Origin: Ancylobacter sp. WKF20
GTDB lineage: Bacteria > Pseudomonadota > Alphaproteobacteria > Rhizobiales > Xanthobacteraceae
Length of the DNA: 64,000 nucleotides
Assembly: GCF_029760895.1 (NCBI RefSeq)
Contig: NZ_CP121679.1
Coordinates: forward strand, 1,984,001 to 2,048,000
Direction of reading: 5' to 3'
Part shown: positions 31,695 through 50,025 of the stretch, one piece after another
How the letters are laid out: each line of letters opens with the position of its first letter
Position numbering within the stretch: position 1 is the stretch's first letter
Position numbers and translations under genes: made by a program
Notes under the pieces: generated by a model
Databases searched by the model: none
What the model was told of the DNA's origin: nothing
What the model saw: only the letters and a program-made list of their open reading frames with translations

Positions 31695-31758
31695 ATTTCT
31701 CAGAGTTTTCAGTGACTTAGCGAGACGATAGGGCGATAGACGCCCTGCCCGGCGGTTG

Positions 31759-31778
31759 AAGTCAGCACCAAGTCAGCA
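31759..31778. other. Left arm-type integrase site
   Basis: AAGTCAGCACCAAGTCAGCA, two AAGTCAGCA units 11 bases apart. An identical 20-base sequence in the same orientation is at 49876. Its placement 65 bases inside attL fits an integrase or excisionase arm site. The rest of the 31694-31796 gap shows nothing. Confidence 0.7.
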
Positions 31779-31796
31779 CAGCGAGAAGCCCGACCT

Positions 31797-32240
31797 TCAG
31801 AAGAAGATCGGGAAGAGTTGGGAATTGTCGGCGACCGAGAAATCGAGTGCGCTTTCAAAAGCCGGCGTCATCTCGGGCGGGAAGACAATCAGCGTCATCG
31901 ACACGCGCGTGATGCCGGTTGCTGGCGAGGTGTACTCCGGCGGGTCACCAGAGAGCTGCACCAGGCGCCGCTCATAGGTGGAGCCGTTCACGCTCACGGG
32001 CATCACCCAGCGAGCGGACAGGCCCGCCGTTTCAGCAACGAACGCCTCGAAGGCCTCCATCTCCCCTTCCTTGAAGATCCGCGACCACCGCATGGTCGCG
32101 ACATCATCACCAGGGCGGCGCCGGTTGCGAACGTTCCCGCCCTCCATGGTGGTCTGGCGGAAGGGACGGAAGGGCTGAAGCTGCCAGTCCGCAGCGGCGG
32201 AGGCATACGGCAGCGAGGAAGGCCACTCGACATAGCTCAT
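31797..32240 (-). CDS. Probable distal/minor tail protein
   Basis: A 147-residue protein opening MSYVEWPSSLPYASAAADWQ. I do not recognise a named domain. It follows the tape-measure gene with a 4-base overlap, the position of the first tail-tip genes (lambda gpM-like) in siphoviruses, and its beta-rich character (ARWVMPVSVNGSTYERRLVQLSG) fits. It is the last gene of the structural operon; only about 100 bases separate its stop from the tRNA. In an ordinary phage four or more tail-tip genes, then lysis genes, would come next. Confidence 0.65.
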   Translation of the reverse strand: MSYVEWPSSLPYASAAADWQLQPFRPFRQTTMEGGNVRNRRRPGDDVATMRWSRIFKEGEMEAFEAFVAETAGLSARWVMPVSVNGSTYERRLVQLSGDPPEYTSPATGITRVSMTLIVFPPEMTPAFESALDFSVADNSQLFPIFF

Positions 32241-34144
32241 CGGCCCTGTCCTTTCGCGGGGTTGGCTCCGTAGCGGGATTCGATGGCGCGCCCGATGTCG
32301 CCGCGCGTCATGATGTCGGACGCCACGGCGCGCTTGACCTGATTGATGACCACATCCACCGATGTGGTGCCGTCGGCCTGTCTCGTCGGCGCGCTTACCT
32401 CGGCGGTGGTTCCTGGCAGGGTGTGAACGTTCACGGTCAGCTTGGCGGGCGCGGCAGTGCCCTGCCCCATGGCGTCGTTCGGAATGATGAACCCGCTCTG
32501 TCGCGGCACCAGCATTTCCGGCCCGCGCTCGCCGACCACATAGGCTTTGCCGGCCGCCACCGGCCCGCCGCTGGCTTTGTAACCGCCGAAGATGCTGGAC
32601 AGCACCCCACCCAAGGCCCCGCCGTTGGTCGTGCCAGAGGCCCCGAACAGTCCCGTGAGAGCGCTCTGCAGCGCGATGTCGATGAGCCGGTCCATCACCG
32701 TGTCGAGCGCGTTGGCGAGCGCGTCCGATGCGTCGACACCCGCGCGGATGTCGTCGACAAAGCCGGAAAGCGCGTCATAGGACGTGCCCCGCAGCATATC
32801 GAGCCGGTCGATCAACGCGGCCTGCGCCATGGCGGCCTGCTCCAGCGCGGCCGCGGCAGCACCGGAGCGTTCGGCGATCTCGTTCAGCTTGTCCGCCTGC
32901 TCCGCTGTGAGCGTGATGCCGGCGCGCTGCGCCTCATTCAACAGATCCTGCTTCACCCGCAGCCGCTCTGCTTCGGCTGTTGTGAGCCCCAATGCCTGCT
33001 GCTCGACGCCCATCTGCGTGATGCGCTGCTCGGCAGCCGTCACAATCTGCCGGTAGGACTCGGCGAGCTGGTCGGCCTTCTTGGTGCTCGCCGTCTCGAT
33101 CTTAGACAGATCGCCGAGGCCGCCGGGCTTGTTGACTGTGAGGCTGGTCTTGGGGCGGCTGTCGAGCTGTGCCTGAAGCTGGTCACGCTCGGCGAGGCGG
33201 GAGGCGATACCGGCATCACCGCCGATTGCCATGAAGGCCAGGCTGCTCTTGCGGGCGTTCGCCACGGCTGCGTCAATGAGGTCGATGCGCCGCTTCAGGG
33301 TGTCGGCGCTCTGCGTCTCCGTCCGGTTGAGCATGTCGGAGAAGTCGCGCATCAGCGCGACGACACCGACGAGCGCCCCCTTCAGGTTTGTGCCGACGGT
33401 GGTGGAGAGCCTGGCGAAGGCCCGGTCAATCTCTGCGGCGCGCTGCACCAGTTCGGCGTCGAGCACGTTTCCGGTGTCGCGCGCCTCCTGCCGCATCTTC
33501 GCGATGTAGCCATTGCCTCGGTCCAGGAGCCGGACGAACTGCTCACCGCCGGTGCCGCCGAATAGCTCGTCTGCGATGCGGATTTGCGCCGCCTTGTCGA
33601 GCCGCCCCAGCTTCCCGATGATTTCCTCGAAGAGCGCCGCCGGATCGGCGAGCTTCTCCTTGAGCTCATCGGCCGTGTAGCCCAGCCGCTGGAACGCCTC
33701 CGCCCCACCGCCAGCCCCGGTGACGATGAATTCATCAGCGCGAAGCTGCATCTCCTTCAGGCCATCGGTGAGCGCGTCGATGTCGACAAGCGCGCCCTGC
33801 GCCGCGTAGCCCAGTTCCTGAAATGCCTCGACACCAACGCCCGCCTTCTGCGCCTCTGCCGCCACGCGCGCCAGATCGGCCGCCGCCGTCTTGGCGCCAG
33901 CGAATAGCCCCGCGATGCCCAGCCCACTGATGCCGGCCGTCGCACCGATAGCGCCGAAGGCTGCGCCGGTGCCGCGCCCCAGATTGGCGAAGGTCTGCGA
34001 CACGACACCGGCGGATCGCTTGGCGCGGTCCTCGATGGCCTTGAACTTCCGATCCGCCGTCTTCTGCGCCCTGTCGAAGTTGCGCTCGAAATCCCGGATG
34101 CGGGCCTCCAGCGCGACCACGAGCCGCTCTTCATCAACTGCCAT
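32237..34144 (-). CDS. Phage tail tape measure protein
   Basis: A 635-residue protein. The N-terminal ALEARIRDFERNFDRAQKTADRKFKAIEDRAKRS is a coiled coil. A hydrophobic alanine/glycine stretch (about 55-90, GAIGATAGISGLGIAGLFAGAK) follows, then long helical repeats. The C-terminus has the common tape-measure tail AYVVGERGPEMLVPRQSGFIIPNDA. Tape-measure length sets tail length; at about 1.5 angstrom per residue this predicts a tail somewhat under 100 nm. Its presence means that the element can specify a tail tube as well as a head. Confidence 0.9.
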   Translation of the reverse strand: MAVDEERLVVALEARIRDFERNFDRAQKTADRKFKAIEDRAKRSAGVVSQTFANLGRGTGAAFGAIGATAGISGLGIAGLFAGAKTAAADLARVAAEAQKAGVGVEAFQELGYAAQGALVDIDALTDGLKEMQLRADEFIVTGAGGGAEAFQRLGYTADELKEKLADPAALFEEIIGKLGRLDKAAQIRIADELFGGTGGEQFVRLLDRGNGYIAKMRQEARDTGNVLDAELVQRAAEIDRAFARLSTTVGTNLKGALVGVVALMRDFSDMLNRTETQSADTLKRRIDLIDAAVANARKSSLAFMAIGGDAGIASRLAERDQLQAQLDSRPKTSLTVNKPGGLGDLSKIETASTKKADQLAESYRQIVTAAEQRITQMGVEQQALGLTTAEAERLRVKQDLLNEAQRAGITLTAEQADKLNEIAERSGAAAAALEQAAMAQAALIDRLDMLRGTSYDALSGFVDDIRAGVDASDALANALDTVMDRLIDIALQSALTGLFGASGTTNGGALGGVLSSIFGGYKASGGPVAAGKAYVVGERGPEMLVPRQSGFIIPNDAMGQGTAAPAKLTVNVHTLPGTTAEVSAPTRQADGTTSVDVVINQVKRAVASDIMTRGDIGRAIESRYGANPAKGQGR

Positions 34145-35756
34145 AGAGAGCCCCTATCAGGTCGTTCACCGCTCCCTCGTCGTCGAGAAAACTGGTGGTC
34201 TCGGATGCCGCGGCGCGCGCCACGGCCATGGCGCAGGCCACAGCACCGTCGATGCGGTCCCGGCTCTTGCCCTTGTGGAACATGCGATTGCCGGCGCTGT
34301 CGGTGTGGACCGCCACGTTGTCGAAGCACCAGCGCAGGACCGGGTGCCCGCCATGAGTGAACCGGCGGCCAACAATGGCGCGTTCCAGCTCCTTCACGGC
34401 CGGCGCCATCGTCACCCAGCCCTGCCGCATCTCGACGGCCGGCAGGCCATCGTCGAGCAGATCGTTGAGCATGTTTCGGGCGAGGTGCGGATCGAAGGCG
34501 ATCTCCTGCACCGCGTAGCGATCGCACAAGCCGCGGATGGTCTCTTCCACCCTGCGGAAGTCCACCACGTTGCCGGGCGTCGGGATGATGAACCCTTTCT
34601 CCGCCCACTGCGGATAGGGCACCCCGTCGCGATCCGCTCGCAGGCGAAGATTGTCCTCGGGGCAGAAGAACCACGGGTGAACGATGAAGCCGTCCTCCCC
34701 GGCGCGCCATGCCGCCACCACACAGGTGAGGTCGCCATTGCTCGACAGATCGACGCCCAGCCAACAAGGCTGGCTCTCCAGCGCGTCTAGATCGACGGGC
34801 GCGGCGCCCTCGTCATAGACGGACATCTCGACGAAGGGCGAGGTGGAGTGATCGAGCCAGACGTTGAGGTTGTATTGCAGGAAGGAGTCGCGGTCGCTCG
34901 GCGAGTTGATGGCCTTCCGGGCCTTGTCCCGGTAGCTCGCCAGGTCGGGATAGCCGTGCCGCATTCCGGGGTTCACCCGGTGCCATAACGCCTCATCGGT
35001 CCAGTCGTCCGCCTTCTCCGCCATGAAGATGACAGGCAAGGTGGCCGGATCGTCGATCTCGCCCTTCTGCACCTTGATCGCGTATTCGATGGTTCGCCAG
35101 GCGAGGTTCTCTTGCCCGCGGCCGGCGGTGCTGGCGACAACCATGAGCGTGCCGGGGATCTTCACCAGCGCGGAATCAAGCGCCTCCCACTGCTTCCGGC
35201 CGGCGGCACCCTCCCACGCGTGCAACTCGTCGGCGATGACGACATTCGGCGTTTTGCCGTGCTGGACCTTGCCGTCCGACGCCACGGCGACATAGCGGCT
35301 CCGCTCACGCTGGAAGGCTATAGAGGAATGGTAGTTGCGCACGGTGAGGTGCTTATCGAGCCGGGCGTCGGCCTCGACGATCAGCGCCACCTCGTTGAAC
35401 AGCTCCATAGCCTGCTCATGCGCCGAAGCCGCCGACACGGTGAGGCCACCGGGCTGACGCTCAGGACCGACCAGGTGCAGGAGCGTGATAGCGGCGCAGA
35501 GCGAGGTCTTACGGTTTCCGCGCGGCAGGAGCAGCACGACGCGGCGCACGATGCGGCTGCCGTCTTCATGACGCGGACCATAGAGCCGGCGGATGATCCG
35601 CTCCTGAAACGGGTCAAGCTGGAATGGATGCCCGCGCGCCGGGTTCTTCGGATGCTTCAGCCGCCGGAGCCACTGCACATTCCGTTCACCACAGCCCAGC
35701 GGATCGGGGATTTCGCTGCCGTCTTCAATCCACGAGGGTATCAGCATCGTCGTCAT
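34134..35756 (-). CDS. terL: Phage terminase large subunit
   Basis: A 540-residue packaging motor. The ATPase Walker A variant is LLPRGNRKTSL, Walker B is NVVIADELHAWEG and the coupling motif is MVVASTAG. The nuclease domain carries LGVDLSSNGDLT (first acidic residue) and ends with KSRDRIDGAVACAMAV (last Asp). It overlaps terS by 32 bases and the tape measure by 11. The position immediately before the tape measure is unusual: terminase genes normally precede the portal gene. Confidence 0.93.
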   Translation of the reverse strand: MTTMLIPSWIEDGSEIPDPLGCGERNVQWLRRLKHPKNPARGHPFQLDPFQERIIRRLYGPRHEDGSRIVRRVVLLLPRGNRKTSLCAAITLLHLVGPERQPGGLTVSAASAHEQAMELFNEVALIVEADARLDKHLTVRNYHSSIAFQRERSRYVAVASDGKVQHGKTPNVVIADELHAWEGAAGRKQWEALDSALVKIPGTLMVVASTAGRGQENLAWRTIEYAIKVQKGEIDDPATLPVIFMAEKADDWTDEALWHRVNPGMRHGYPDLASYRDKARKAINSPSDRDSFLQYNLNVWLDHSTSPFVEMSVYDEGAAPVDLDALESQPCWLGVDLSSNGDLTCVVAAWRAGEDGFIVHPWFFCPEDNLRLRADRDGVPYPQWAEKGFIIPTPGNVVDFRRVEETIRGLCDRYAVQEIAFDPHLARNMLNDLLDDGLPAVEMRQGWVTMAPAVKELERAIVGRRFTHGGHPVLRWCFDNVAVHTDSAGNRMFHKGKSRDRIDGAVACAMAVARAAASETTSFLDDEGAVNDLIGALYGS

Positions 35757-36120
35757 CCCTCATCGCCGGCCGGCTCCGCGATGTCGGCGTGAGCCCCAGC
35801 TCGCCAGCGAGCAATCGAGCCTGCGCCATGGCGCCCTGTTGAATGGCCACGGCCGGGTGTTTCCGGGGGCCGTGAGGTCCGTTGAAAGTCAGCCCCTCCT
35901 TGCTGATGATCTCTGCCGCCTGCGCCACCTGGCCGACGGCGATGCAGTAGCTTTGAAGGGTTGCGACATCGCCCGTGGTCAGCACCTTCCGTTCCTGGGT
36001 GAGGATCGGCGCTACCCGCTTCCATTCGGCCTTTGCGTGCCGGTCGAACCACGAAGGCGGCGCCGGCGTCTCCATCGCCTGTGCGGCCGCCACGAGGTTT
36101 TGCGGACGGCGCCCCCTCAT
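35725..36120 (-). CDS. terS: Phage terminase small subunit, P27 family
   Basis: A 131-residue protein beginning MRGRRPQNLVAAAQAMETPAPPSWFDRHAKAEW. GDVATLQSYCIAVGQVAQAAEIISKEGLTF and GPRKHPAVAIQQGAMAQARLLAGELGLTP are the typical P27-type DNA-recognition and oligomerisation helices. The ATG at 36120 overlaps the head-closure stop by 4 bases. It selects element DNA for packaging. Confidence 0.88.
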   Translation of the reverse strand: MRGRRPQNLVAAAQAMETPAPPSWFDRHAKAEWKRVAPILTQERKVLTTGDVATLQSYCIAVGQVAQAAEIISKEGLTFNGPHGPRKHPAVAIQQGAMAQARLLAGELGLTPTSRSRPAMRDDDDADTLVD

Positions 36121-36434
36121 GTCCCAATCCTCTCGCAACGGATTTCCAGGCCCTTGCGACGGCCCAACTCCTTCAGCTCGACAATGTTGAAGGCGGCACC
36201 GTCATAGGTGACGCGATCCTGCGTCGTGATGCCGTCCAGCCATCGGGTGCGGAAGGCGAACACCCGCTCGGTGGATGCGCCATAGCTGCGCATGAACTCG
36301 GCGGTAGTCGACTGCACAAGCTGCGCTCGCAACGTGGCCAGCGCCGCCCATGTCAGGGTGACGGCGCCATACTGATCAGGCGTCTCGGTGGACCGCTCGA
36401 CGATGATGGTGCGATCAAGAGACCCCGCCCTCAT
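36117..36434 (-). CDS. Phage head closure / head-tail adaptor protein
   Basis: A 105-residue protein of the SPP1 gp16 / HK97 gp7-like type: MRAGSLDRTIIVERSTETPDQYG at the start, then WAALATLRAQLVQSTTAEF and RTRWLDGITTQDRVTYDGAAFNIVELKELGRR. It joins the portal-connector to the tail. It is displaced: in most phages it directly follows the gp6-like connector, but here six genes intervene. Confidence 0.85.
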   Translation of the reverse strand: MRAGSLDRTIIVERSTETPDQYGAVTLTWAALATLRAQLVQSTTAEFMRSYGASTERVFAFRTRWLDGITTQDRVTYDGAAFNIVELKELGRRKGLEIRCERIGT

Positions 36435-36841
36435 GAGGGGAACTCCTCAACCAGCGCCTCGAAGGTCAGCACCCCATGGCCGGTTTCGCCGTCAGGGTCT
36501 CGCGTGAAGCGCGCGCCCGTGTAGCGGGCCGACACCACCGGCACCGCCCCGAACGCACGCCCTCGGAGGGCAGCCCCGACCGTTCCCGCGATCCGGCGGG
36601 CACCAATGAGCGCCCCGTCTCGGGTCCAGACGTGGATCGTCTGATAGAGGCGCACATGGTTGTCAGCCAGGGTCAGGTCTTCGCGAACCGTCTGCCCCTC
36701 GCCGAGGATGATGCAGGGGAACCGTTCCGGCCTGGCGTGCCGGTCGAAGATGTTGGCGGACGGGACAAGCGCGAGCACATCGGTGCTGGCTTTCAGCTTT
36801 GCGACGATGGCCTCCTGAAGATTCAACGACACGTCCGTCAT
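36431..36841 (-). CDS. DUF3168 tail completion/terminator protein
   Basis: A 136-residue protein. LQEAIVAKLKASTDVLALVPSANIFDRHA at the N-terminus and DGALIGARRIAGTVGAALRG with a C-terminal GHGVLTFEALVEE match DUF3168, which corresponds to tail-terminator proteins at the head-tail junction. It overlaps both neighbours by 4 bases. Confidence 0.85.
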   Translation of the reverse strand: MTDVSLNLQEAIVAKLKASTDVLALVPSANIFDRHARPERFPCIILGEGQTVREDLTLADNHVRLYQTIHVWTRDGALIGARRIAGTVGAALRGRAFGAVPVVSARYTGARFTRDPDGETGHGVLTFEALVEEFPS

Positions 36842-37083
36842 GGCCTGACCTTTCTCGCGCCGAGGCTTGTCATAAGGGCGCGGACGCCCTTGCCATCCTT
36901 CGCCGACACCAGCCCCGGATCGGGCTTCTCACCGCCGCCGTGGATCGCTCGGAGCATGTCCAGCTTGCCGTCATAGGCGAGGCGTAGCTCCCGCATGGTG
37001 CAGCCCATCACGACGGCGGGAGGCCAGCCGAGCCAGCCCGTGCCGATCTTGAAGAGCCATTCGAGATATTCCCCGAAGGTCAC
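36838..37083 (-). CDS. Phage tail assembly chaperone-like protein
   Basis: An 81-residue protein with GTGWLGWPPAVVMGCTMRELRLAYDGKLDMLRAI, which resembles the short tail assembly chaperones (TAC) of alphaproteobacterial phages and gene transfer agents. It starts with a 4-base overlap after the previous chaperone-like gene, the position where many siphoviruses place the second, frameshifted product. No slippery site is obvious, so it appears to be a separate overlapping gene. Confidence 0.65.
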   Translation of the reverse strand: MTFGEYLEWLFKIGTGWLGWPPAVVMGCTMRELRLAYDGKLDMLRAIHGGGEKPDPGLVSAKDGKGVRALMTSLGARKVRP

Positions 37084-37418
37084 TCGCCGAAAGGGCGCGG
37101 CGGTTCCTTGGCCTCCGCTTCATCACCGGACGGCGCGCGCCCGCCATTCGCCAGCACAATGACGAAGCGCACCAGATCGGGCGTGAGGGTCATCAGGCCA
37201 GCGCCGAAGACCTGCGCCGTGGTCGCCTCGCGTTCGTCCACCGGGCGATTGAGGCCCGCCAGAACGACATCCACGGCTGCATTCAGGTCGTACCGCTCCA
37301 GCGCGGCGAGCAGGTTCATAAGCCCGCCGTGCCGTTTGTTGAGGTCCAACGCGGCGCCGAGCGTCGGCAAGAGCACCTCTTCCCGGTCGCCTATGCGGAT
37401 GGTGAGCCCCTCCAGCAT
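37080..37418 (-). CDS. Gene-transfer-agent-family / tail assembly chaperone protein
   Basis: A 112-residue protein, LTIRIGDREEVLLPTLGAALDLNKRHGGLMNLLAALERYDLNAAVDVVLAGL, matching the GTA-TAC type (gp10-like) encoded right after the tail tube in rhizobial phages. It should chaperone the tape measure during tail assembly. It overlaps the tail-tube stop by 1 base. Confidence 0.75.
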   Translation of the reverse strand: MLEGLTIRIGDREEVLLPTLGAALDLNKRHGGLMNLLAALERYDLNAAVDVVLAGLNRPVDEREATTAQVFGAGLMTLTPDLVRFVIVLANGGRAPSGDEAEAKEPPRPFGE

Positions 37419-37891
37419 CAGGCTTCCTCTTCCGCCGGCAGCTCAAGGATGGCGGAATTGATGCCGATGTTGAACGTGGTCCGAACGACGTTGTTCTGCT
37501 GGCCGTAGTTGTCGCGGGCGGACATCACCAAGCCGCGGAAGTAGTAGATCGAATTGGTGTGATCGGCGTCCGGCGCATCGTTGGCGACGACCTTGAAGTT
37601 GTACTCGAAGGTGTTTTTCTCGGCGCTGCGCATGGCAATCTGGCCGGGGTCCAGCGGGTCACGGCCGACCACCAGCACCAGCGTGCCGGCATCGCGCGCG
37701 CCCTTCAGCTTCTTCACGCGGGCGTCGCCGAGTGCCGCGAAGCTGATCGCCTCGCTCTCGTCGCCAAGCTCGCCGAGGTCTTCCACCTCCTTGACTTCGA
37801 CATAGGTGTCAGCGGCGAACTGGGTCTCGTTCGTCGCCGCGGTGGTGGTGCCGATATAGATCTTCGTGCCGGCAGCGGATTTGATGCTCAT
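37418..37891 (-). CDS. Phage major tail tube protein
   Basis: A 157-residue protein: MSIKSAAGTKIYIGTTTAATNET, VEVKEVEDLGELGDESEAISFAALGDARVKKLKGARDAG and a C-terminal RTTFNIGINSAILELP. This pattern matches the tail tube proteins of the lambda gpV / TP901 group. The start at 37891 was chosen because the first 48 codons of the longer frame overlap the gp10 gene and show no similarity. Its length-determining partner, the tape measure, is also present. Confidence 0.87.
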   Translation of the reverse strand: MSIKSAAGTKIYIGTTTAATNETQFAADTYVEVKEVEDLGELGDESEAISFAALGDARVKKLKGARDAGTLVLVVGRDPLDPGQIAMRSAEKNTFEYNFKVVANDAPDADHTNSIYYFRGLVMSARDNYGQQNNVVRTTFNIGINSAILELPAEEEA

Positions 37892-37904
37892 GACGGTCTC
37901 TCGC

Positions 37905-38312
37905 TCATGTCTTGGTGGATCGAACCGCCTTGGCGACGGCGCGCTTGATGCCGCTGGCCGCCTTCTTCCGGTGCAGCCGGAAGGCAGGCCAGAAGAACGG
38001 TTGAGCCGGGGCCTCAGCGGTCCCGTGCTCGACAAGGTGCGGATAGCGAACCTCGGTGTTCCCCGCCGTGATCAGGACGGCATTTGACGGGGCAACGGCG
38101 GAACCGCCGGGCTGCGAATAGGGCGGGGTCGACTGGCCGGGCGGCGTGACGGCGATGCTGTCCCTCAGCGCGCCGGTATCCTCCGGCGCGAGCTGGCGCA
38201 TGGTGTCGGCCATCTCATTCGCGGCCTTGATCAGAGCCGGCGTCACCGCCGCCACCGCCGCGCGAGGTATCGCCTGCAGGCGCCGCTTGAGCCGTTCGGA
38301 TTGGGCGCTCAT
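37905..38312 (-). CDS. HK97 gp10-family phage protein
   Basis: A 135-residue head-tail junction protein: RLKRRLQAIPRAAVAAVTPALIKAANEMADTMRQLAPEDTGALRDSIAV is diagnostic, ending with VEHGTAEAPAQPFFWPAFRLHRKKA. It probably acts as a tail-completion factor. The gap to the tail tube is 13 bases. Confidence 0.88.
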   Translation of the reverse strand: MSAQSERLKRRLQAIPRAAVAAVTPALIKAANEMADTMRQLAPEDTGALRDSIAVTPPGQSTPPYSQPGGSAVAPSNAVLITAGNTEVRYPHLVEHGTAEAPAQPFFWPAFRLHRKKAASGIKRAVAKAVRSTKT

Positions 38313-38313
38313 G

Positions 38314-38613
38314 TCAGAATACCCACGCGCGATAGGGCTCGATCAGATCGTGGAAGCCGAACGGCACCTCCGTGACAGCACCCTGGCCGATGAAGCTGGC
38401 CTCCCGCGCCTCATAGAGGTGGCCGACGAGTAGCTTGATTGCAGCGACCACATCAGCCGGCACCTCGTCGAAATCCTCGAGCGGGCCGATCCATTTCTCG
38501 ACATGCCGGCACGCCGCGGACAGCATTCCGGTGAGCAGCGCGTCGTCATCGCCGCCGGTGATGTTGAGGTGCGCCTTAAGATCGGCGAGCGGAATGATGT
38601 CAATGTCAGCCAT
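38314..38613 (-). CDS. Phage head-tail connector protein (gp6-like)
   Basis: A 99-residue protein: IPLADLKAHLNITGGDDDALLTGMLSAACRHVEKWIG and DVVAAIKLLVGHLYEAREAS are typical of the gp6/gp15-like connector that extends the portal ring. It overlaps the HNH gene end by 8 bases. Confidence 0.87.
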   Translation of the reverse strand: MADIDIIPLADLKAHLNITGGDDDALLTGMLSAACRHVEKWIGPLEDFDEVPADVVAAIKLLVGHLYEAREASFIGQGAVTEVPFGFHDLIEPYRAWVF

Positions 38614-39061
38614 CTGATTTCCTCATCGCGCGGCGACTTCCATCGAAATTCGCTATTTGGGGAAAATCGTGCGCTGTCTTCCCCCCGCCGGTCCCTGGGG
38701 CCTCTGGGAAGTTGCGAACCACCCCCCGGGCCTCGTCGGCCTGCTTGGCTCGGCTGTGGCAGGGCGTGCAGAGCGGCTGCCAGTTGGACCGGGACCAGAA
38801 CAGCTTGCGGTCTCCACGGTGAGGGACGACGTGATCCACCACGGTGGCGGGCTGGCCGCACCGCTTGCAGGTCGGGTGCGCCTTCAGGAACGCGGCGCGC
38901 TCGGTCTGCCACTTCCCGTCATAGCCACGCTCGCGGGCTGATGGCCGGTTCTGGTCTGCCCTGGCCTTGCGGTCGGCAGCACGGCGCGCCTCGCAGGGGC
39001 ACTGCACCCCTGACGCTACCTTGTGCCCACATCCGCAGATCCTCGGCGCTCTCACCGGCAT
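38606..39061 (-). CDS. Phage HNH endonuclease
   Basis: A protein of about 151 residues. Zinc-binding cysteines lie in RICGCGH and VQCPCEARR. The HNH core is HPTCKRCGQPATVVDHVVPHRGDRKLFWSRSNWQPLCTPCHSRAK. Such HNH proteins partner the terminase in DNA cleavage at cos sites of HK97-type phages. ATG 39061 (MPVRAPRICGCG) matches the usual start and has AGGGAAC upstream; ATG 39094 also has a good site. Here it lies between capsid and connector genes, far from terS/terL (nine genes away). Confidence 0.87.
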   Translation of the reverse strand: MPVRAPRICGCGHKVASGVQCPCEARRAADRKARADQNRPSARERGYDGKWQTERAAFLKAHPTCKRCGQPATVVDHVVPHRGDRKLFWSRSNWQPLCTPCHSRAKQADEARGVVRNFPEAPGTGGGKTAHDFPQIANFDGSRRAMRKSDG

Positions 39062-39266: not shown

Positions 39267-39647
39267 TCAGGCGACGGGCGAGCGAGCGGGGTCGCCCTTG
39301 AGCGCGACGGCGCCGAGTGCGATGGACGTGCCGCCGGCCTTGGTGAGCGACAGGCGGGCGTACCGCTTGAAGCCGATGTAGCCGAGCTTGTAGGCGCTCG
39401 CCGCTGCAAGGGTCGCGGGCACCGTGCCGAGCACAGCCGAAGCCGCCGCGTCCGTGAAGGTCGATCCGTCGTCCGACTCCTGCACCTTGATGCCGAAGTC
39501 ACCCGAACCGACGATGGCGCCGGTGTTGATGGCGAAGGCGACGCGATTGAAGCCCTTCAGGTCGATGGCAAGGCCATCGCCGGCAGCGGACTGAACAGCC
39601 GGCGCGAAGGCCGGGACGATACCGATATTGGAAACCAGGTCGCGCAT
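39267..39647 (-). CDS. Phage structural protein, possible capsid decoration protein
   Basis: A 126-residue beta-rich protein (FNRVAFAINTGAIVGSGDFGIKVQESDDGSTF; KLGYIGFKRYARLSLTKAGGT). I do not recognise a named family. It lies 10 bases after the capsid gene and its size and position fit a decoration or head-fibre-base protein. A 205-base gap without a gene (39062-39266) follows. Confidence 0.6.
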   Translation of the reverse strand: MRDLVSNIGIVPAFAPAVQSAAGDGLAIDLKGFNRVAFAINTGAIVGSGDFGIKVQESDDGSTFTDAAASAVLGTVPATLAAASAYKLGYIGFKRYARLSLTKAGGTSIALGAVALKGDPARSPVA

Positions 39648-41211: not shown

Positions 41212-42392
41212 GGCACCTCGACAACGGGCTGATCAGCGCCGGGCTGGCTGCTGCCGGTGTTGGGATTGGCGTATTCGTCGCCGCCGGCGCGGGGCGGCAG
41301 GCCCAGCCAGTCGCGGCCCTCATTCGGGTTGAGCACGCGCGCCGATATCAGGCTGGAAATGGCCGTCGCGCGGGCCGTGAGGTCGGCGCGGGTGAGGTCG
41401 TCGCGGTCAAAGGTGATGCGGTAGCCCTGCCGGCGCTCATCATCGGAGAGCAGTGCCCATGTGAGGGCACCCTCCAGCGCGCGAAGCCACGGCTCTAGCG
41501 AGTAGCTCAGGAACTCCTTGCCCTGCTGCTCGCCGTTGGACCAGGTGGCGCGATCAAGGTCGTAGATCATGGCCGGCGGCACGCGGAAAGCGCGGCACAC
41601 CTCCAGCGTCTGGAACTTCCGCAGCTCCAGAAACTGCGCATCGACGCTGGTGATGGTCAGCGGGTAGAACCGTGCCTCGTCATCAAGGAAGGCGGTGCGG
41701 CCGGACTTGCCGCCACCATGCGCGGCTTCCCAGAACATGGCCGCGGCTCGGATGGCTTCCGGGGCCTTCCGGCCCTTGAACGACACCATGCCGGAGGGCT
41801 TGGCGCCGTCCTTGAAGAGCCGGCCGACATGCCCCTCCATCAGCTTCGCGGCGCCGATGGCATCCGCAGCGAGAGACAGGGGCGAGCGCGAGAACGGCGA
41901 GCGGAGGTGAACCACATCGGCCGGATTCACCGGGACGTTGTTGATGCGGTAGCTCGGTTCCATCCGGCCATCGCCGGAATAGTCGACGACGAAGTGAGCC
42001 GCCTCATAGCGCACCAGCTCGACGACGCGGCCATTGACCTTGTTCGCCAGCGCCAGCGCGCCCTTGTCGGTGACCAGCGCGGCCGCAACCATGTCGCGCA
42101 CCAGCGTGAAGGCATCGGTCCAGTCGTTCGGGCGCTCGGTGAGCAGCGACACCACCGGGTGATCGGCGGCCTCGGTGTCGGTGTTGCCGACGCGGCGCAT
42201 CACCTTCAGGTCCAGGCAGGCCGCCGCCTCGGAGAGAAGGCGAACGGCGGACTGCACCGCCGGCAGCGTGAGGGCCTGTTCGGGAGAGACGGACAGCGCG
42301 CCGTTGGATATGCCAAACACAGACAGCAAATCGCCGTCCGGGGCGGACAGCGACTTACGGGTCAGGAAGCTGCGCAGGTATCCATAAAGCAT
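41208..42392 (-). CDS. HK97-family phage portal protein
   Basis: A 394-residue portal: LTLPAVQSAVRLLSEAAACLDLKVM, HPVVSLLTERPNDWTDAFTLVRDMVAAAL, DVVHLRSPFSRSPLSLAADAIGAA and CRAFRVPPAMIYDLDRATWSNGEQQGKEFL are diagnostic. It forms the dodecameric packaging vertex. It begins the structural operon 99 bases downstream of the early genes, after a pentanucleotide repeat. Confidence 0.93.
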   Translation of the reverse strand: MLYGYLRSFLTRKSLSAPDGDLLSVFGISNGALSVSPEQALTLPAVQSAVRLLSEAAACLDLKVMRRVGNTDTEAADHPVVSLLTERPNDWTDAFTLVRDMVAAALVTDKGALALANKVNGRVVELVRYEAAHFVVDYSGDGRMEPSYRINNVPVNPADVVHLRSPFSRSPLSLAADAIGAAKLMEGHVGRLFKDGAKPSGMVSFKGRKAPEAIRAAAMFWEAAHGGGKSGRTAFLDDEARFYPLTITSVDAQFLELRKFQTLEVCRAFRVPPAMIYDLDRATWSNGEQQGKEFLSYSLEPWLRALEGALTWALLSDDERRQGYRITFDRDDLTRADLTARATAISSLISARVLNPNEGRDWLGLPPRAGGDEYANPNTGSSQPGADQPVVEVP

Positions 42393-42491: not shown

Positions 42492-42866
42492 CTACACAGA
42501 AGACTGCATCAACTGGATCACATGCTCACGCGCAAGCTGCTCGGCTTCGGCGCGGGGTAGGCCCTCGTCATGCTCCAGGATCGCGGCGCGCTCCTCATAG
42601 GTCGCCTGCCAGTCCTCACCGTCCCAACCGGAGCGATCCAGAGAAAAAACGCGAAAACGCTCTGACGGGTCACTGACAAAACTGACAGAACCTCCGGCGG
42701 CCTCGGCGCGCTCCGGCACAGAAAAATTCTGAATTCGCTCCACTGACGCACTGACAGAACTGACAAAACCTACCTGGGTAGAGGTTTCGTCAGTTTTGTC
42801 CGTGCTCCGCTCATGCGTATCGTGAATTTTTTCGGGTTGGAGCAGGCGTGCTGTCCACCGCCCCAT
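42492..42866 (-). CDS. Conserved prophage hypothetical protein with VSFVS motifs
   Basis: A 124-residue protein. The N-terminal half is low-complexity (STDKTDETSTQVGFVSSVSASVE, GGSVSFVSDPSERFRVFSLDRS). The C-terminal half is conserved-looking: GWDGEDWQATYEERAAILEHDEGLPRAEAEQLAREHVIQLM. The start follows the stop of the DUF3987 gene by 2 bases. Function is unknown. The gene doubles as a DNA repeat region: it contains six ACTGAC/GTCAGT hexamers and one copy of a 53-base repeat found again after the integrase gene. Confidence 0.65.
   Translation of the reverse strand: MGRWTARLLQPEKIHDTHERSTDKTDETSTQVGFVSSVSASVERIQNFSVPERAEAAGGSVSFVSDPSERFRVFSLDRSGWDGEDWQATYEERAAILEHDEGLPRAEAEQLAREHVIQLMQSSV
42643..42695. 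repeat. 53-bp repeat, copy 1 (inverted with respect to 48505-48557)
   Basis: From GAAAAAAC at 42643 to ACCTCC at 42695. Aligned with the reverse complement of 48505-48557 it matches at 48 of 53 positions. It contains the core CACTGACAAAACTGAC. In this copy it encodes GSVSFVSDPSERFRVFS of the overlapping gene. Confidence 0.85.
42672..42794. repeat. ACTGAC hexamer cluster, iteron-like
   Basis: ACTGAC at 42672, 42681, 42742, 42750 and 42759 and its complement GTCAGT at 42789: six copies in 123 bases. Pairs are arranged as ACTGAC-3 bases-ACTGAC. They lie next to the gene of the putative replication protein. This may be a replication origin, or may only reflect repeated VSxVS coding. Confidence 0.5.
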
Positions 42867-42868: not shown

Positions 42869-44368
42869 TCAGGCACTCTCGGCGAGGCAGGGATTCCACC
42901 GGTACACCGTAGACGGGCGGCCGCCTCTGATGTCTGGCTCCTGCGGCAGCTCGCGGCAATGGTGGGTGACGATGAGGAGGTCCAGCGCCGAGGCAACCGT
43001 CTCACGGTCGGCAAGGCCGCTCCACTGCTTACGCTGCACATCCCGCGCGGTGAACTCCTTCGGCAACTGCTTGCGCCGCTCCAAGATGAGCCGGGCGCCT
43101 TCCTCGGCGAGCGTCTGGCCGGCGGAGTAAATGCGATTGGCGTGGGAGCGCAGATAGTCCGCCCAATCGAGCGCCCGCGCCGTCGTCTCCGCATCCACTG
43201 CCGTGGTGCCGCCGCCGACCAACTCGAAGATCAGCGCCAGGCTCGCGACCGTCTTCGGCATCTTCAGGATGTGGCTCTCCATTATCTGCGAGAGCCGGCC
43301 GGAGCGGGCATCGCGCTGGTTCTCCTCCATCCACTCCCGGAACAAGGCTTGCGCCTTCGGCGTGAACCGCAGGGCGGTATAGCCCCCTTCCCCGTCGCCA
43401 AGCTCCAAGCCATGCAGGCGACGGAAGGCGCTCTCATAGTCGTCACGCGCGATAAGGCTCGGGTGCCGGTCCACCCACTGCCAGGAGCCGACATCATCCG
43501 GCCAGACGGCGAGCTGAAGACGCTGGATCAACCCGTCATTGCTCAACCCTGACACCGCGCCCTGCACGATAGGAGCGAGGCGCGAGGGCTGCATCCCGCC
43601 GATGATGGACAAGGTGCAACTGTCGATCGTGACGGTGCCGCGCCCGATCCGGTCATAGGTAAAACGGCCATCGCCGTTGAACGCCTCCAGATAGAAGGCC
43701 CGCTCCGATGCGTATTCCTCGCTCTCCATGCGCGCGAGGAAGCCGGGCAACTCATCGCGCACCAGCATGAGGCCACGCGGATTCTCGTTGAGCAGCTCGC
43801 CCAATTTTTCGACCGTCGCGTCGTTCACGATGAGGCGCGGGCACGGCGTTTCACCTCCATCGTCCTCGGCGAGGGAAGCGAGCAACTCGCGCGCCCCGGC
43901 GCGGTCTCCTTCCTTGAGCGCCTTTGCGGCCCGCTTCTTGGCGTCCTTCGCATCGATCTCGGAGAGCACATCATCGACAGCAGCCTCCCGCTCGGCTTCC
44001 TCCCACTTCCGCCGCATGTCGTCCTGCAGGGCATAGACAGGCGAAAGGGCGGACTGCATCGCGGGGGATTTCATGGCGCTCGGCCGTCCGATAATGGCGC
44101 CCCAGAGATTGGGCACCACCTGCCAGTCGTCATGCTGCTTTGGCCGGATGCGCACCCTGTTGCCCAGCGCCGCGGCGAGGCCGCACACCGCCGTGACGGC
44201 CGCGAAGTCAGGGGGCGATTGCTGCCGGTCGGCGATGTCCACCACATAGGCCCGGAGCGCCGCCGGCAGAAGATCGGGATCGAACGGCATCACCGCAGGC
44301 AGCGCGATCTTGAGCGGACGCGGGCGAGGCCACGCTTCCCGTTCGGCCTTCTCCAGAGACACCAGCAT
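42869..44368 (-). CDS. DUF3987/YfjI-type replication protein (primase-helicase-like)
   Basis: A 499-residue protein. A P-loop variant WGAIIGRPSAMKSPAMQSAL is near residue 95. RLIVNDATVEKLGELLNENPRGLMLVRDELPGFLARME and GTVTIDSCTLSIIGGMQPSRLAPIV are typical of DUF3987/YfjI proteins of prophages and islands. These are related to primase-associated helicases and are thought to start element replication. The predicted coiled region DAKDAKKRAAKALKEGDRAGARELLAS lies near 140-170. It overlaps the upstream gene by one base. Confidence 0.85.
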   Translation of the reverse strand: MLVSLEKAEREAWPRPRPLKIALPAVMPFDPDLLPAALRAYVVDIADRQQSPPDFAAVTAVCGLAAALGNRVRIRPKQHDDWQVVPNLWGAIIGRPSAMKSPAMQSALSPVYALQDDMRRKWEEAEREAAVDDVLSEIDAKDAKKRAAKALKEGDRAGARELLASLAEDDGGETPCPRLIVNDATVEKLGELLNENPRGLMLVRDELPGFLARMESEEYASERAFYLEAFNGDGRFTYDRIGRGTVTIDSCTLSIIGGMQPSRLAPIVQGAVSGLSNDGLIQRLQLAVWPDDVGSWQWVDRHPSLIARDDYESAFRRLHGLELGDGEGGYTALRFTPKAQALFREWMEENQRDARSGRLSQIMESHILKMPKTVASLALIFELVGGGTTAVDAETTARALDWADYLRSHANRIYSAGQTLAEEGARLILERRKQLPKEFTARDVQRKQWSGLADRETVASALDLLIVTHHCRELPQEPDIRGGRPSTVYRWNPCLAESA

Positions 44369-45083: not shown

Positions 45084-45388
45084 GCAGAGCCTCCTTCTGC
45101 GTCCCACGCGTCGGCGAGGGCGGTGAATCGGTCGATGAAGCTGTCGACGGCGATCTCTTGGGCCTTGGCGATCATCTTCTGATCGGTCACGCCATTGGCG
45201 AGCATCACCGCTGCGATGCCGTTCCGCAGATCGCGCAGGGCGGTGTCCCACGCATCCTCGAAGACAATCGACGGCGTTTCCTCCGGCCAACTGGCTTCGA
45301 CAGCGAAGAGCGAGCGCGCGATCTCGGAGCCGGCTGACTGAAAAATCCACGAGAAATGAGCTTCGGCCTCCTTTTGCGTGAAGGTCAC
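45080..45388 (-). CDS. Small prophage protein
   Basis: A 102-residue, mainly helical acidic protein (FTQKEAEAHFSWIFQSAGSEIARSLFAVEASWPEE; AIAAVMLANGVTDQKMIAKAQEIAVDSFIDRFTALADAWDAE). No domain is recognised. It has 4-base overlaps on both sides. Probably an early regulatory or accessory function of the element. Confidence 0.62.
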   Translation of the reverse strand: MTFTQKEAEAHFSWIFQSAGSEIARSLFAVEASWPEETPSIVFEDAWDTALRDLRNGIAAVMLANGVTDQKMIAKAQEIAVDSFIDRFTALADAWDAEGGSA

Positions 45389-45675
45389 GGCGTCACCTCG
45401 CGCTCGCTGCTCGATCCGCAGAGGGGGCCGATCTTCTCGGCGGCCCAGCGGTCAAGCTCCTCCCTGGGATAAAGCGGGGACCGGTTGCAGTACTGCACCG
45501 CCGGCCCGCCGCCGGTTACGATGAGCTTCGCCAGCGTCGAGACCTTGAAGGACAGCCCGTGCGCCAGCGCGAGGTACTCGCTGGCCTCGGAGCGGCGCAG
45601 GCGCGGCTTGCGAAGGTGGGGCGGGAGGCAAAGCTCCGCCGTCCCCGCCAAGGCGGGTTTGGTGAACTCGGTCAT
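45385..45675 (-). CDS. AlpA-like helix-turn-helix DNA-binding protein
   Basis: A 96-residue protein whose core RKPRLRRSEASEYLALAHGLSFKVSTLAKLIVTGGGPAVQYCNRSPLYPREELDRWAAEKIG is the AlpA/MerR-type HTH_17 arrangement used by excisionases and satellite regulators. The start at 45675 has GGAG about 10 bases upstream. In P4 and PICI-type satellites AlpA-like proteins activate excision and replication genes, and this one heads the operon leading to the DUF3987 protein. Confidence 0.72.
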   Translation of the reverse strand: MTEFTKPALAGTAELCLPPHLRKPRLRRSEASEYLALAHGLSFKVSTLAKLIVTGGGPAVQYCNRSPLYPREELDRWAAEKIGPLCGSSSEREVTP

Positions 45676-45688
45676 TTTCGGATGCTCC

Positions 45689-46288
45689 TCAGCCGTTCGC
45701 CGCTGTGACTTCGCCAATCCACTTGAGCAGTGCTGGCGTGGCTGTGTGCGTTACATAATGGAAGCCGTTACCAGACGAGTTGGTCGCGCCCGAGAAGCTA
45801 ACCTCTCCACGCAGGGCAAGCCTCTTGGTCCGGTCGCTCGGCTGCCAGTTCATGTCGAACTGCAACTCAACAATCGCTCCATCTGTTACCTCCAGATAGA
45901 CGAAATTGTCGCGACCGAGAGCATCGGATGCCATGCGGGTGCAAAGGATGGTCAGCAGATCGAGCAGCGGTTTCTTGGACAGCTCACCTAAGTTGCTGTC
46001 CAGTCCGAAGGTGTGATGAAACGCGGCCATCGGCTGCTCGCCGGCGCCGGGGACCATCTTGAAGCGCGCAAGATCGGAGGCGGCGTTGTGGGCTTCCGTT
46101 GCTGGGTGCCCGCTCATGAAGGCCAGAAGCAGCAGGACCGCTTCCTCAGTGCTGAGGTCAGGCGCGTGTCGGCCGCGCGCCTTGCGGCGGAACCCGGCCT
46201 CCGCAAGCGTCCGGTCGAAGATCAAAATGGCGTTCGGCTCTTTGTTGAGCCGAACGGCCAGCTCTCGGCAGAAGACGGCGGCATTCAT
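45689..46288 (-). CDS. Prophage early hypothetical protein
   Basis: A 199-residue protein of unknown function, opening MNAAVFCRELAVRLNKEPNAILIFDRTLAEAGFRRKARGRHAPDLS, possibly a small helical DNA-binding N-terminus, followed by a beta-rich C-terminal half. It is the first gene after a promoter flanked by two 23-base operators (46314-46370). The longer frame upstream to 46444 would run through the operators, so the ATG at 46288 is preferred. Confidence 0.7.
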   Translation of the reverse strand: MNAAVFCRELAVRLNKEPNAILIFDRTLAEAGFRRKARGRHAPDLSTEEAVLLLLAFMSGHPATEAHNAASDLARFKMVPGAGEQPMAAFHHTFGLDSNLGELSKKPLLDLLTILCTRMASDALGRDNFVYLEVTDGAIVELQFDMNWQPSDRTKRLALRGEVSFSGATNSSGNGFHYVTHTATPALLKWIGEVTAANG

Positions 46289-47263: not shown

Positions 47264-47307
47264 TGTTTACAGGGTGAACATGCCAGCAGGTGTTTACAGT
47301 GTCAACA
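47264..47307. promoter_or_regulatory. Pair of 17-bp operators at the divergent XRE switch
   Basis: TGTTTACAGGGTGAACA at 47264-47280 and TGTTTACAGTGTCAACA at 47291-47307: partial palindromes (TGTTTAC / GTnAACA), 27 bases apart, same consensus. On the minus strand the second contains a perfect TTGACA (47305-47300). They lie between the acidic leftward gene and the rightward XRE gene, and the second overlaps the first codons of the XRE frame. Confidence 0.7.
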
Positions 47308-47547
47308 GGCTCCCCAATCATCCCGGCCCAATGCAAGATGGCGCGAGCCGCCTTAGGCCTCGGCGTGCGCGATCTAGCGGCACTTGCTGGGGTCTCGGCT
47401 ATGACCGTGACGCGATTTGAAAACGGTCACACCGGCGGGGCACCCGACACGCTCGCCGCGATCCAGCGCGCACTGGAAGTTGCAGGCGTCGAATTCATCG
47501 CTGAGAATGGCGGTGGTGCTGGTGTCAGGCTGAGGAAGGCAACATAG
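47290..47547 (+). CDS. XRE-family repressor-like protein (CI/Cro type)
   Basis: An 85-residue protein consisting almost entirely of an XRE helix-turn-helix: IIPAQCKMARAALGLGVRDLAALAGVSAMTVTRFENGHTGG, then DTLAAIQRALEVAGVEFIAENGGG. The start is uncertain: GTG 47290 and GTG 47299 lie in or next to the second operator, and ATG 47338 would remove part of the first helix. It is the best candidate for the element's own switch protein. It is separated from the next gene by the stop codon only. Confidence 0.82.
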   Translation: MFTVSTGSPIIPAQCKMARAALGLGVRDLAALAGVSAMTVTRFENGHTGGAPDTLAAIQRALEVAGVEFIAENGGGAGVRLRKAT

Positions 47548-48456: not shown

Positions 48457-48504
48457 TGGTCATGACTCTTGCAGGCTCCCCGTACCTTAGGCCTGCGAGG
48501 ACGG

Positions 48505-48557
48505 GGAGGTTTCGTCAGTTTTGTCAGTGCCCCGCCAGAGCGTTTTCGTGTTTTTTC
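48505..48557. repeat. 53-bp repeat, copy 2, beside the integrase stop
   Basis: Reverse-complement match (48 of 53) to 42643-42695. It contains GTCAGT at 48514 and 48523 and abuts the integrase stop codon. Read on the plus strand it encodes GFVSFVSAPPERFRVFS, nearly the peptide encoded by copy 1, so it may be the remnant of a duplicated gene segment or a conserved DNA element. Confidence 0.85.
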
Positions 48558-49848
48558 ACTCCTCCGCGATACCCATGGCCCGCGCGATCCGCGCCGCGGT
48601 CCTGTCTGACACCGCCTTGATCGGGTCATCTCGGAGGTGGGCATAACCCTCGGTGGTGGTGGCGCGCTTGTGCCCCAGCACCTTGCCCACCAGGAACAGA
48701 GCCTCGCCGTCCGCCACGGCGAAGCTGGCGAAGGAATGCCGCAGATCGTGCAGGCGCAGCGCCGTCAGGTCCGGCGCCTCCGACACGGGCAAGCCCGCCT
48801 CTGCCGCCCGCTGCCGGGCGATCTCCGTCGCCTTATCCCTCACCCGCTGCCAGCCATGTTGCAGGCCGACCATGTGCCCCTCGCTCTCGCGAAGCGGTGG
48901 GAAGACGAACCGGCGGCCCTCCTGCCGCTCGATCCTGCGCAGGATGTCCACCGCCGGCACCGGCAGGGGCGTGACTTTGCTGCCGGTCTTGCTGTCCGGG
49001 AAGCGGATCACGCGCCGCTCGAAGTCGATCCACGCCCATTCCAGCCCCAGCACCTCACCCTTGCGGCAGCCGGTGAGCATCAGGAGCCTGATTGCATCGG
49101 CCATCGCAGGGTGCAGCTTCATTTCATCGACGCAGGCGGTGAGCGCCTCGGCGAGGAGCAGGACTTCGGCCTCGGAGAGGAACCGCTCGATCTTGTTCGG
49201 GGCATAGAGCTTGATGCCGCGGGCGGGGTTCTCGTCGATCAGCCCGCGCGCCACGGCGAAGGTGAGCGCGCCGCCAAGGCAGGCGACAGCGTGAGACGCG
49301 GCGCCCTTCCCTCCCTGCACCACGGCCAGGCCTCGCTTGCCGGTCTTGATCCGCGCCGCCGTCTTCCCCGCCGCAATGTCGCTCATCATCTTGGTGATGT
49401 CCTGCCGCCGCAGGGTCTTGAGCGGCTTCCGGCCGATGAGCGGCACGACGTGCCGGGTGAAATAAGCCCGGTCGCTGGCCCAGCTCACAGCCTTCTTGTT
49501 CGGCTTGTCCGCCGGCCCATCGGATAGATAGAGCTCGAGCAAGCCCGTCACGGTGAGCGCCTCGCGCGCGGCGCCCTTCGTCTCCAGCGGGTCGATGCCG
49601 GCGCGCACGTCGAGCAGGATCTTAGCCGCCCTCTCGCGCGCAAGCTCCGGCGTCCAGGGTGAACCGTGCTTGCCGATGGTCACCTCGCGCTGCCGGCCCT
49701 CGGCGGTGCGATAGGTCACGACATAGCTTTTCACCCCCGCCGGGGTGATGCGGAGGGCGAAACCCTTCAGGTCGGAATCCCACACCATGGTCTTGCGAGA
49801 CGGGTCGGCCGTGGCGGCATCGACGACCTTCTTGGTGATCCGGGGCAT
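48556..49848 (-). CDS. int: Tyrosine-type site-specific integrase
   Basis: A 430-residue phage integrase. The N-terminal DUF4102 arm-binding domain is recognisable (VDAATADPSRKTMVWDSDLKGFALRITPAGVKSYVVTYR). The catalytic domain has Arg in LMLTGCRKGEVLGLEW (about residue 260), HxLR in LRLHDLRHSFASFAV (about 367) and the nucleophile Tyr in TTTEGYAHL (about 401), all present. It recombines the 47-base att core in tRNA-Met. It is encoded at the right end, reading away from attR; the 177 bases between them hold its probable arm sites. Confidence 0.95.
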   Translation of the reverse strand: MPRITKKVVDAATADPSRKTMVWDSDLKGFALRITPAGVKSYVVTYRTAEGRQREVTIGKHGSPWTPELARERAAKILLDVRAGIDPLETKGAAREALTVTGLLELYLSDGPADKPNKKAVSWASDRAYFTRHVVPLIGRKPLKTLRRQDITKMMSDIAAGKTAARIKTGKRGLAVVQGGKGAASHAVACLGGALTFAVARGLIDENPARGIKLYAPNKIERFLSEAEVLLLAEALTACVDEMKLHPAMADAIRLLMLTGCRKGEVLGLEWAWIDFERRVIRFPDSKTGSKVTPLPVPAVDILRRIERQEGRRFVFPPLRESEGHMVGLQHGWQRVRDKATEIARQRAAEAGLPVSEAPDLTALRLHDLRHSFASFAVADGEALFLVGKVLGHKRATTTEGYAHLRDDPIKAVSDRTAARIARAMGIAEE

Positions 49849-49875
49849 GGTGGACTCGACTCCTGCATTTAAGCC

Positions 49876-49895
49876 AAGTCAGCACCAAGTCAGCA
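49876..49895. other. Right arm-type integrase site
   Basis: AAGTCAGCACCAAGTCAGCA, identical and in the same orientation as 31759-31778. It lies 28 bases upstream of the integrase start. Confidence 0.7.
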
Positions 49896-49908
49896 GCGTA
49901 TGGCAAGC

Positions 49909-50010
49909 TCGATCAAATTCGATCCAACTCGATCAAACATAGCAGCCCGACCTACCCCTTGAAATGTCTAAGCAAATCCAATCTTGGTAAACTCGGGTAA
50001 AGGTGGTAAA
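49909..50010. repeat. Clustered short repeats between integrase and attR
   Basis: Three in-phase 10-base units (CTCGATCAAA, TTCGATCCAA, CTCGATCAAA) at 49909-49938, then GGTAAA at 49986, 49996 and 50005 (9-10 base spacing). One-turn spacing suggests cooperative protein binding on one DNA face, for example by an excisionase. Together with the arm site they account for the gene-free stretch 49849-50025. Confidence 0.6.
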
Positions 50011-50025
50011 AGAGCCTAACCCCAA

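Follow-up and report, generated by a model that had tools for sequence, protein, structure and literature searches.

We analyzed a window of 64,000 nucleotides of Ancylobacter sp. WKF20 (contig NZ_CP121679.1, positions 1,984,001 to 2,048,000) that carries, at positions 31695-50025, an integrated phage-like element. Judged by its genes, this element is probably a satellite akin to the capsid-forming phage-inducible chromosomal islands (cf-PICIs), which makes head and tail tube itself and would borrow the tail tip and the lysis functions from a helper phage. The satellite-like architecture itself, with its own head and its own tail shaft and with neither tip nor lysis genes, is real and conserved; that a helper mobilises the element and places its tip on the particle is what we infer. 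The evidence comprises the gene content, the boundaries and empty sites, the conservation of the plan, signs of purifying selection and the kinship of the tail module with phages.

The element is bounded by an identical direct repeat of 47 bp, the core of the attachment (att) site, one copy of which lies at a tRNA-Met gene (Table 1). The distance from core to core is 18,378 bp, and positions 31695-50025 represent the DNA between both copies. Empty sites were found in two related genomes (genomes are denoted by G and loci by L): the flanks of the element are 290 bp apart in G018 compared to 18,672 bp in the window, a difference of 18,382 bp, and 339 bp apart in G014 compared to 18,737 bp, a difference of 18,398 bp, these insert sizes being a comparison by coordinates. 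This repeat and these empty sites bear out a previous sequence-only reading of this DNA, which had described an att-bounded unit of 18.4 kb, and the exact arm site that it reported on the short side was recovered as a 20-mer present near either end. An imperfect direct repeat of 30 bp (93% identical, 42781-42810 and 48506-48535) flanks the regulation/replication block on both sides. The sole match in an RNA-family scan of the element was the tRNA.

The minus strand is the sense strand of the element except for a divergently oriented, repressor-like block encoded on the plus strand. Reading from the integrase, this block is followed by small genes, an AlpA-like helix-turn-helix (HTH) gene and genes for a DUF3987 protein, portal, protease-capsid fusion, a Bbp16-like protein, HNH endonuclease and head-tail adaptor Ad1. 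The order continues with a gp10-like neck protein, major tail (tube) protein (MTP), the N and then the C half of the tail assembly chaperone, tail terminator, head completion protein (HCP), small and large terminase subunits (TerS, TerL), tape measure protein (TMP) and g147, a distal gene of 147 residues whose stop codon lies 103 bp from the att core on the tRNA side. The reading frames are intact, most of them abutting or overlapping, and called genes cover 92% of the element. Pfam cut-offs were passed by the portal, the S78 protease and capsid, Phage_connect_1, HK97-gp10, gp17, head completion, TerS, TerL, HNH and DUF3987, and a full HK97-type head and packaging set is encoded. Both chaperone genes scored below the Pfam cut-offs and were identified by their alignment to the halves of single proteins in other elements. 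Tail tip, receptor-binding and fibre genes were not found in the element by Pfam and PHROGs scans, and no lysis family was found among the 29 element proteins scanned against PHROGs or the 20 scanned against Pfam. A PADLOC scan for defence genes gave 0 matches among 10 element proteins. With these scans and alignments, the sequence-only gene list (portal, protease-capsid, connectors, tail tube, chaperones, TerS, TerL, tape measure) held up, as did its intact overlapping frames, its single 147-residue distal gene about 100 bases from the tRNA and its lack of tip, adsorption and lysis genes. We also considered g147 as a stub cut by the att site, given that homologues of 476-485 aa exist; this was rejected because its C-terminal end matches that of a complete phage homologue of 146 aa, so that g147 is complete. 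The g147 profile had no match among PDB sequences, and a search of viral contigs with g147 alone returned 1 stretch matching the pattern and no confirmed relative.

The plan of the element recurs. A TMP search of 151 genomes, the own genome included, gave matches in 48, and TMP-profile scans yielded 66 loci from public genomes, together with the best 80 of 167 in viral contigs. Genes were called by a custom script and labelled by means of iterated profiles that started from proteins of the window and of annotated phages. TerL follows the portal in 71 of the 138 TMP entries of at least 350 aa, and in 61 after removal of near-copies. These 61 non-redundant elements, nearly all alphaproteobacterial, have the common order portal-capsid-neck-terminase-TMP; a tube gene is present in 38 and none was labelled in 23, while 9 elements carry a recognised distal protein, either of the g147 type or of a type matching phrog_1302 (distal tail protein). 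At least 5.5 kb of sequence follows the TMP in 31 of the 71, and 29 of these have neither an open reading frame (ORF) of 600 aa nor a J homologue within 7 kb. Both flagged cases lie outside the element: the gene in L071 is situated among bacterial genes, and the ORF in L187 lies beyond the integrase. When a downstream integrase is also counted as an end, the judgeable elements number 38 of the 61; L071 and L187 are again the only ones flagged, and none has a large tip ORF inside the element. At a stricter limit of 300 aa an ORF was found in 7 of these 38; five are host DNA by place or by the look of the sequence (window, L085, L088, L089, L094), and unassigned ORFs that may lie inside the element occur only in L091 (318 aa) and L098 (345 aa). 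A large tip ORF was present in 8 of the 11 entries with TerL before the portal and enough sequence, and in 12 of 31 entries without a recognised head, a class that mixes full phages, Mu-like loci with tips of small ORFs (L121-L125) and satellites without a recognised terminase. The window's own order, with tube and split chaperone between gp10 and gp17, was found in eight elements (window, G026C4, G088, L077, L135, L136, L137, L140), four of which have a g147-type gene (window, L135, L136, L140; in L135 and L140 the stretch stops right behind this gene). Two small ORFs after the TMP of L137 hinted at decayed tip remnants, for which the L076 tip proteins gave no support.

The element was also approached through TerL, which gave 24 matches in 19 of 101 related genomes, 20 of them of the satellite type (E <= 1e-140). 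A TMP follows TerL in 11 of these 20 (the TMP of G094 was missed by the gene caller and counted from the TMP search), 8 have no intact TMP and one is cut by a contig end; the second element of the own genome, which retains a TMP fragment, is one of the 8. Among 23 regions tested, 15 are enclosed by direct repeats of 15-53 bp, and a tRNA (Met, Ala, Gln, Pro, Leu, Ser, Gly) marks the site in 14 of these 15. Seven of the repeats measure 39-53 bp, and eight measure only 15-19 bp and rest on the tRNA/integrase position, as chance repeats of such length occur there. The remaining 8 regions have no bounding repeat, several of them having an end outside the stretch. Repeat-bounded spans are 17.6-18.5 kb for tube-bearing elements (n = 3), 16.8-18.1 kb for those with a TMP and no tube (n = 6) and 16.5-17.2 kb for those without an intact TMP (n = 6), and this near-constant length suggests a packaging limit.

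Ratios of nonsynonymous to synonymous substitution rates (dN/dS, NG86) between the window and G026 were 0.13 for the MTP, 0.16 for the terminator, 0.21 for the TMP, 0.26 for the C half of the chaperone, 0.29 for TerL, 0.30 for the portal and 0.46 for the capsid. Against G088 the values ranged from 0.19 to 0.43, excluding a chaperone row (0.56) that probably pairs different halves and was not used. All of these ratios are rough at a dS of about 0.6-1.5. The tube and TMP genes look to be under purifying selection. Three full phages from Xanthobacter and viral contigs (L076, L141, L143) carry a colinear homologous tail module that ends in g147, DUF1833, a gene for 140 aa and J, combined with an unlike head: the neck and tail proteins are 35-61% identical to those of the window over the matched parts (42% of the length for the TMP), compared to 22% for TerL and 30% for the portal. 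In the MTP tree these three phages are nested inside the satellites, adjoining L077 and L136; two very long branches, L100 and L128, have weak MTP labels (34 and 28 bits). The window TMP is closest to satellite G018 over residues 76-520 (86-91%). For residues 521-635 the nearest sequence is that of G013, a prophage of the genus (40%), followed by a G014 locus of unknown context and by G007, satellites giving only short matches. Similarly, the nearest relatives of g147 are in prophages of the genus (G019 50%, G009 44%, G015 44%), and the C-terminus of the G026 TMP is likewise phage-like. The pattern in the window fits a swap of the tip-facing end for the local phage type. The set as a whole lends no support to phage-like C-termini as a general feature of satellite TMPs: a full phage was the best match of 7 of 63 C-termini and of 6 of 63 N-terminal parts in a reference set itself drawn with TMP patterns, and we restrict the claim of a chimeric TMP to the window and G026.

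Based on these data we propose the following course. Growth of a helper siphophage in the cell would trigger excision of the satellite, which would replicate by its own helicase-like protein and be packaged by its own terminase into its own head. Its tube protein would polymerise on its own TMP with its own chaperone, and its own terminator would cap the resulting shaft, while its own ring of g147, which resembles lambda gpM, would close the distal end. The helper would supply only the tip beyond this ring (in related phages the DUF1833 protein, a protein of about 140 aa and J) and lysis. The outcome would be a chimeric virion with a tail length set by the satellite, g147 presumably being the join between own and borrowed tail parts. 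In a wider form, for which we regard the chances as even, tube-forming satellites would constitute a widespread class found chiefly in Alphaproteobacteria. Its members would make head, tube, TMP and in some cases the first tip ring themselves and depend on phages for no more than the adsorption tip and lysis; own and borrowed parts would meet at the distal ring. The C-terminus of the window TMP and g147 are of the local phage type and the rest of the TMP is of the satellite type, so that an exchange of the tip adaptor may match a satellite to its helpers and host range.

Several observations weigh against the satellite reading. No matching helper was found in the own genome by searches with Phage-tail_3, the protein at the DUF1833 position, the L076 J protein or the window MTP; for the DUF1833, J and MTP searches other genomes provided no positive control, and a phage outside this genome would escape them, and the L076 J protein itself has no Phage-tail_3 match, so that this domain alone would miss the L076 type. 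A look for a second prophage with a homologous tail tip, advised by the sequence-only reading, thus turned up only a cluster resembling a gene transfer agent (GTA). The tube gene is present in only 2 of the 20 TerL-seeded elements (window and G026) compared to a TMP in 11; therefore, a TMP is a common feature here, and the further step to a tube is taken more rarely. In the viral contigs, where other Alphaproteobacteria abound, the tube is frequent. Furthermore, the 61 elements came from a TMP search and have a TMP by construction, and with the custom gene calls and labels a tip made up of small ORFs only could escape, as the Mu-like loci L121-L125 pass the 600-aa test. What stands of the satellite interpretation is a stable arrangement with own head and tube and without tip or lysis genes, recurring in divergent elements at different tRNAs; mobilisation by a helper that lends tip and lysis is a proposal. 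A helper from outside this genome is possible. Of 30 genomes of the genus, 2 have the window MTP and 8 have g147 homologues, the own genome being included in both counts, and five of these eight (G002, G009, G013, G015, G019) read as prophages with a J-like gene.

Other explanations must account for the same gene set. The satellite might wear a tail taken whole from its helper, in which case the tube, chaperone and TMP that it encodes would serve for interference, jamming or outcompeting the assembly of helper tails. Sister elements of the same genus without tail genes (8 of the TerL sample of 20) indicate that a borrowed tail suffices for them, and PLE11 is described as showing tail assembly to be an interference target (PMC12987554); we nevertheless consider this unlikely, as the element retains tube, terminator, chaperone, TMP and distal ring together beside the connectors, which is more than interference would require. 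An inert siphoprophage, deprived of tip, fibre and lysis genes by deletion, would explain the homology of the tail module to full siphophages in an element that is chromosomal and known from sequence. This is very improbable: the same end recurs in divergent elements at different tRNAs, the att and arm sites are intact on the short side, the frames are intact with low dN/dS, and the position of TerL is unlike that in full phages bearing this tail. Relatives with tip or lysis genes between TMP and att, which would have pointed to a deletion, were not seen among the 38 judgeable elements of this order. A single or chance deletion as the origin of the plan is unlikely because the same arrangement recurs in this way, and the earlier remark that a random deletion is the less simple account gains weight from the recurrence, the intact att and arm sites and the signs of selection.

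Two further sources of a tip merit hardly any credence, even less than the deletion. The tip could come from the resident GTA-like cluster and not from a phage, this cluster at about 135-151 kb holding the genome's only Phage-tail_3 match together with hub-like genes; the window MTP, TMP and g147, however, have no match there, gp17 being the only tail gene with one (28%), and g147 is closest to phages. The cluster (L215-L217, G000:C1) has the look of a Rhodobacter-type GTA, with a short TMP (196 aa) followed by genes for 213, 286, 150 and 1302 aa. Alternatively, the element could be a complete miniature phage with a tip made from unrecognised small genes, for which the candidates would be p251, p184, p102, p127 and p94, all of no known function. 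These genes, however, sit in the regulation/replication block, the largest protein among them has 251 aa, 92% of the element lies in called genes and no lysis gene was found.

The favoured reading, a satellite with its own head and tube, can be set against known systems. According to PMC10690885, the cf-PICIs of Alqurainy et al. (2023) need a helper only for tails. The element shares with them an integrase and attachment site at a tRNA, a replication gene, capsid, protease, portal, connectors, HNH, TerS and TerL, and the absence of tip and lysis genes; it differs in that these islands are described as taking a whole helper tail, whereas it has its own tube, chaperone, terminator, TMP and distal ring. 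The PLE (PICI-like element) satellites of Vibrio cholerae encode a TMP and a tail assembly chaperone, PLE11 also a hub, and form functional chimeric tails, as reported in 2026 (PMC12987554). A satellite-encoded TMP and chaperone are common to them and the element, and the remaining tail parts come from the helper, as we propose here; PLEs are described as taking the helper capsid and tail tube, whereas the element has its own head and tube. Some cf-PICIs have putative tmp genes (Extended Data Fig. 10b of PMC12987554) and resemble the element in having own capsid and TMP, the legend naming integrases and TMPs only. The siphoprophages L076, L141 and L143 have the same colinear module (gp10-chaperone-MTP-terminator-HCP-TMP-g147) and differ in the unlike head, in TerL preceding the portal and in the tip (DUF1833, ~140 aa, J) after g147, and the tail tip, receptor-binding and lysis genes of a complete siphovirus prophage are absent from the element. 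Alphaproteobacterial GTAs likewise have an HK97-type head and siphovirus-like tail genes; the element differs in its integrase, att and empty sites, and a separate GTA-like cluster lies elsewhere in the genome. The accessible part of PMC12846349 holds nothing on satellite tails, and no satellite with its own tail tube gene was found in the open-licence literature among the matches listed. The sequence-only reading had called this a third arrangement. New is that tube, terminator and distal ring are carried together with a head; TMP-carrying satellites were already in print (PMC12987554).

In these sources, satellites are described either as taking tails whole (cf-PICIs) or as swapping few tail parts (PLEs). 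The present elements form a graded series at almost constant length, from no tail genes through chaperone and TMP to the addition of the tube and then of the distal ring. This series makes it testable which parts of its virion a parasite can leave to a helper and how its range of helpers is restricted. Tail genes alone cannot tell prophages from satellites, and many 'incomplete prophages' of 15-18 kb in Alphaproteobacteria may be satellites.

Table 1. Attachment sites, repeats and genes of the element, in window coordinates.
Feature	Position	Strand	Remarks
tRNA-Met	31617-31693	+	3' end overlaps att core
att core, tRNA side	31648..31694	.	47 bp identical to 50026-50072; 3' part of tRNA-Met
Arm-type repeat, copy 1	31759..31778	.	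20-mer identical to 49876-49895; putative arm site
g147, distal tail / tail-tip ring protein	31797..32240	-	lambda gpM-like fold
TMP, 635 aa	32237..34144	-	phrog_10574 3.3e-121; below Pfam cut-off
TerL	34134..35756	-	PF20441, PF03354
TerS	35725..36138	-	PF05119; start uncertain
Head completion / head-tail adaptor	36117..36434	-	PF05521
Tail terminator, gp17-like	36431..36841	-	PF11367; phrog_176 tail terminator
Tail assembly chaperone, C half	36838..37083	-	aligns to C half of 28/28 fused chaperone-like proteins; weak PF09550
Tail assembly chaperone, N half	37080..37418	-	aligns to N half of 11/28 fused proteins; weak PF11836
MTP	37418..37897	-	phrog_158 2.9e-25; 46% to annotated Rhizobium phage tail tube; below Pfam cut-off
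HK97 gp10-like neck / tail completion protein	37905..38312	-	PF04883, phrog_5
Head-tail adaptor Ad1	38314..38613	-	PF05135 (Phage_connect_1), phrog_40
HNH endonuclease	38606..39004	-	PF01844
Bbp16-like head protein	39267..39647	-	putative cement role; weak PF21190; phrog_5707, function unknown
Protease-capsid fusion	39658..41211	-	PF04586 (S78 protease) + PF05065
Portal	41208..42392	-	PF04860
DUF3987 helicase-like protein	42869..44368	-	putative replication role; PF13148; phrog_2373 DNA helicase
AlpA-like HTH (putative name)	45385..45717	-	HTH_17 at E 0.005, below cut-off
Repressor-like HTH	47290..47547	+	weak transcriptional-regulator PHROGs
Tyrosine-type integrase	48556..49848	-	phrog_1
Arm-type repeat, copy 2	49876..49895	.	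20-mer identical to 31759-31778; putative arm site
att core, integrase side	50026..50072	.	47-bp copy; empty sites in G018 and G014

Some further elements deserve mention. The own genome holds a second satellite at another tRNA-Met (L003/L004, G000:C1, about 1872.5-1889.8 kb), which shares with the window the capsid (92% over part), TerS and TerL (67-68%), portal, HNH and Ad1, and has cargo ORFs and a C-terminal TMP fragment after TerL. The satellite L261 (G019:C1, 1245-1265 kb) has a TMP of 784 aa three genes after TerL, with genes for 305 and 226 aa in between; therefore, the TMP need not abut TerL. Two satellites at different tRNAs in G002:C1 (L037-L040) have the same scores from terminator to TMP and differ in integrase and portal, a pattern of recent exchange between satellites. 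A distal protein of another family directly follows the TMP in L095 (phrog_1302), L098, L145, L164, L187 and L142, with a second tip gene after it in L145 and L164; these are other places for the border between own and borrowed parts. A pair of chaperone-like genes occurs in satellites of the Rhodobacterales type such as L173 (12304-12639 and 3237-3623): one lies between the portal and capsid genes (phrog_313), the other follows the TMP (PF23812). Finally, L051/L052 (G012:C2) encodes integrase, capsid, protease, neck, a chaperone-like protein and TMP, with no recognised portal, terminase or tube, and similar maps were seen in L229, L082, L075 and L205 (G012 was checked, the other four were taken from maps); elements of this type might resize both the head and the tail of a helper.

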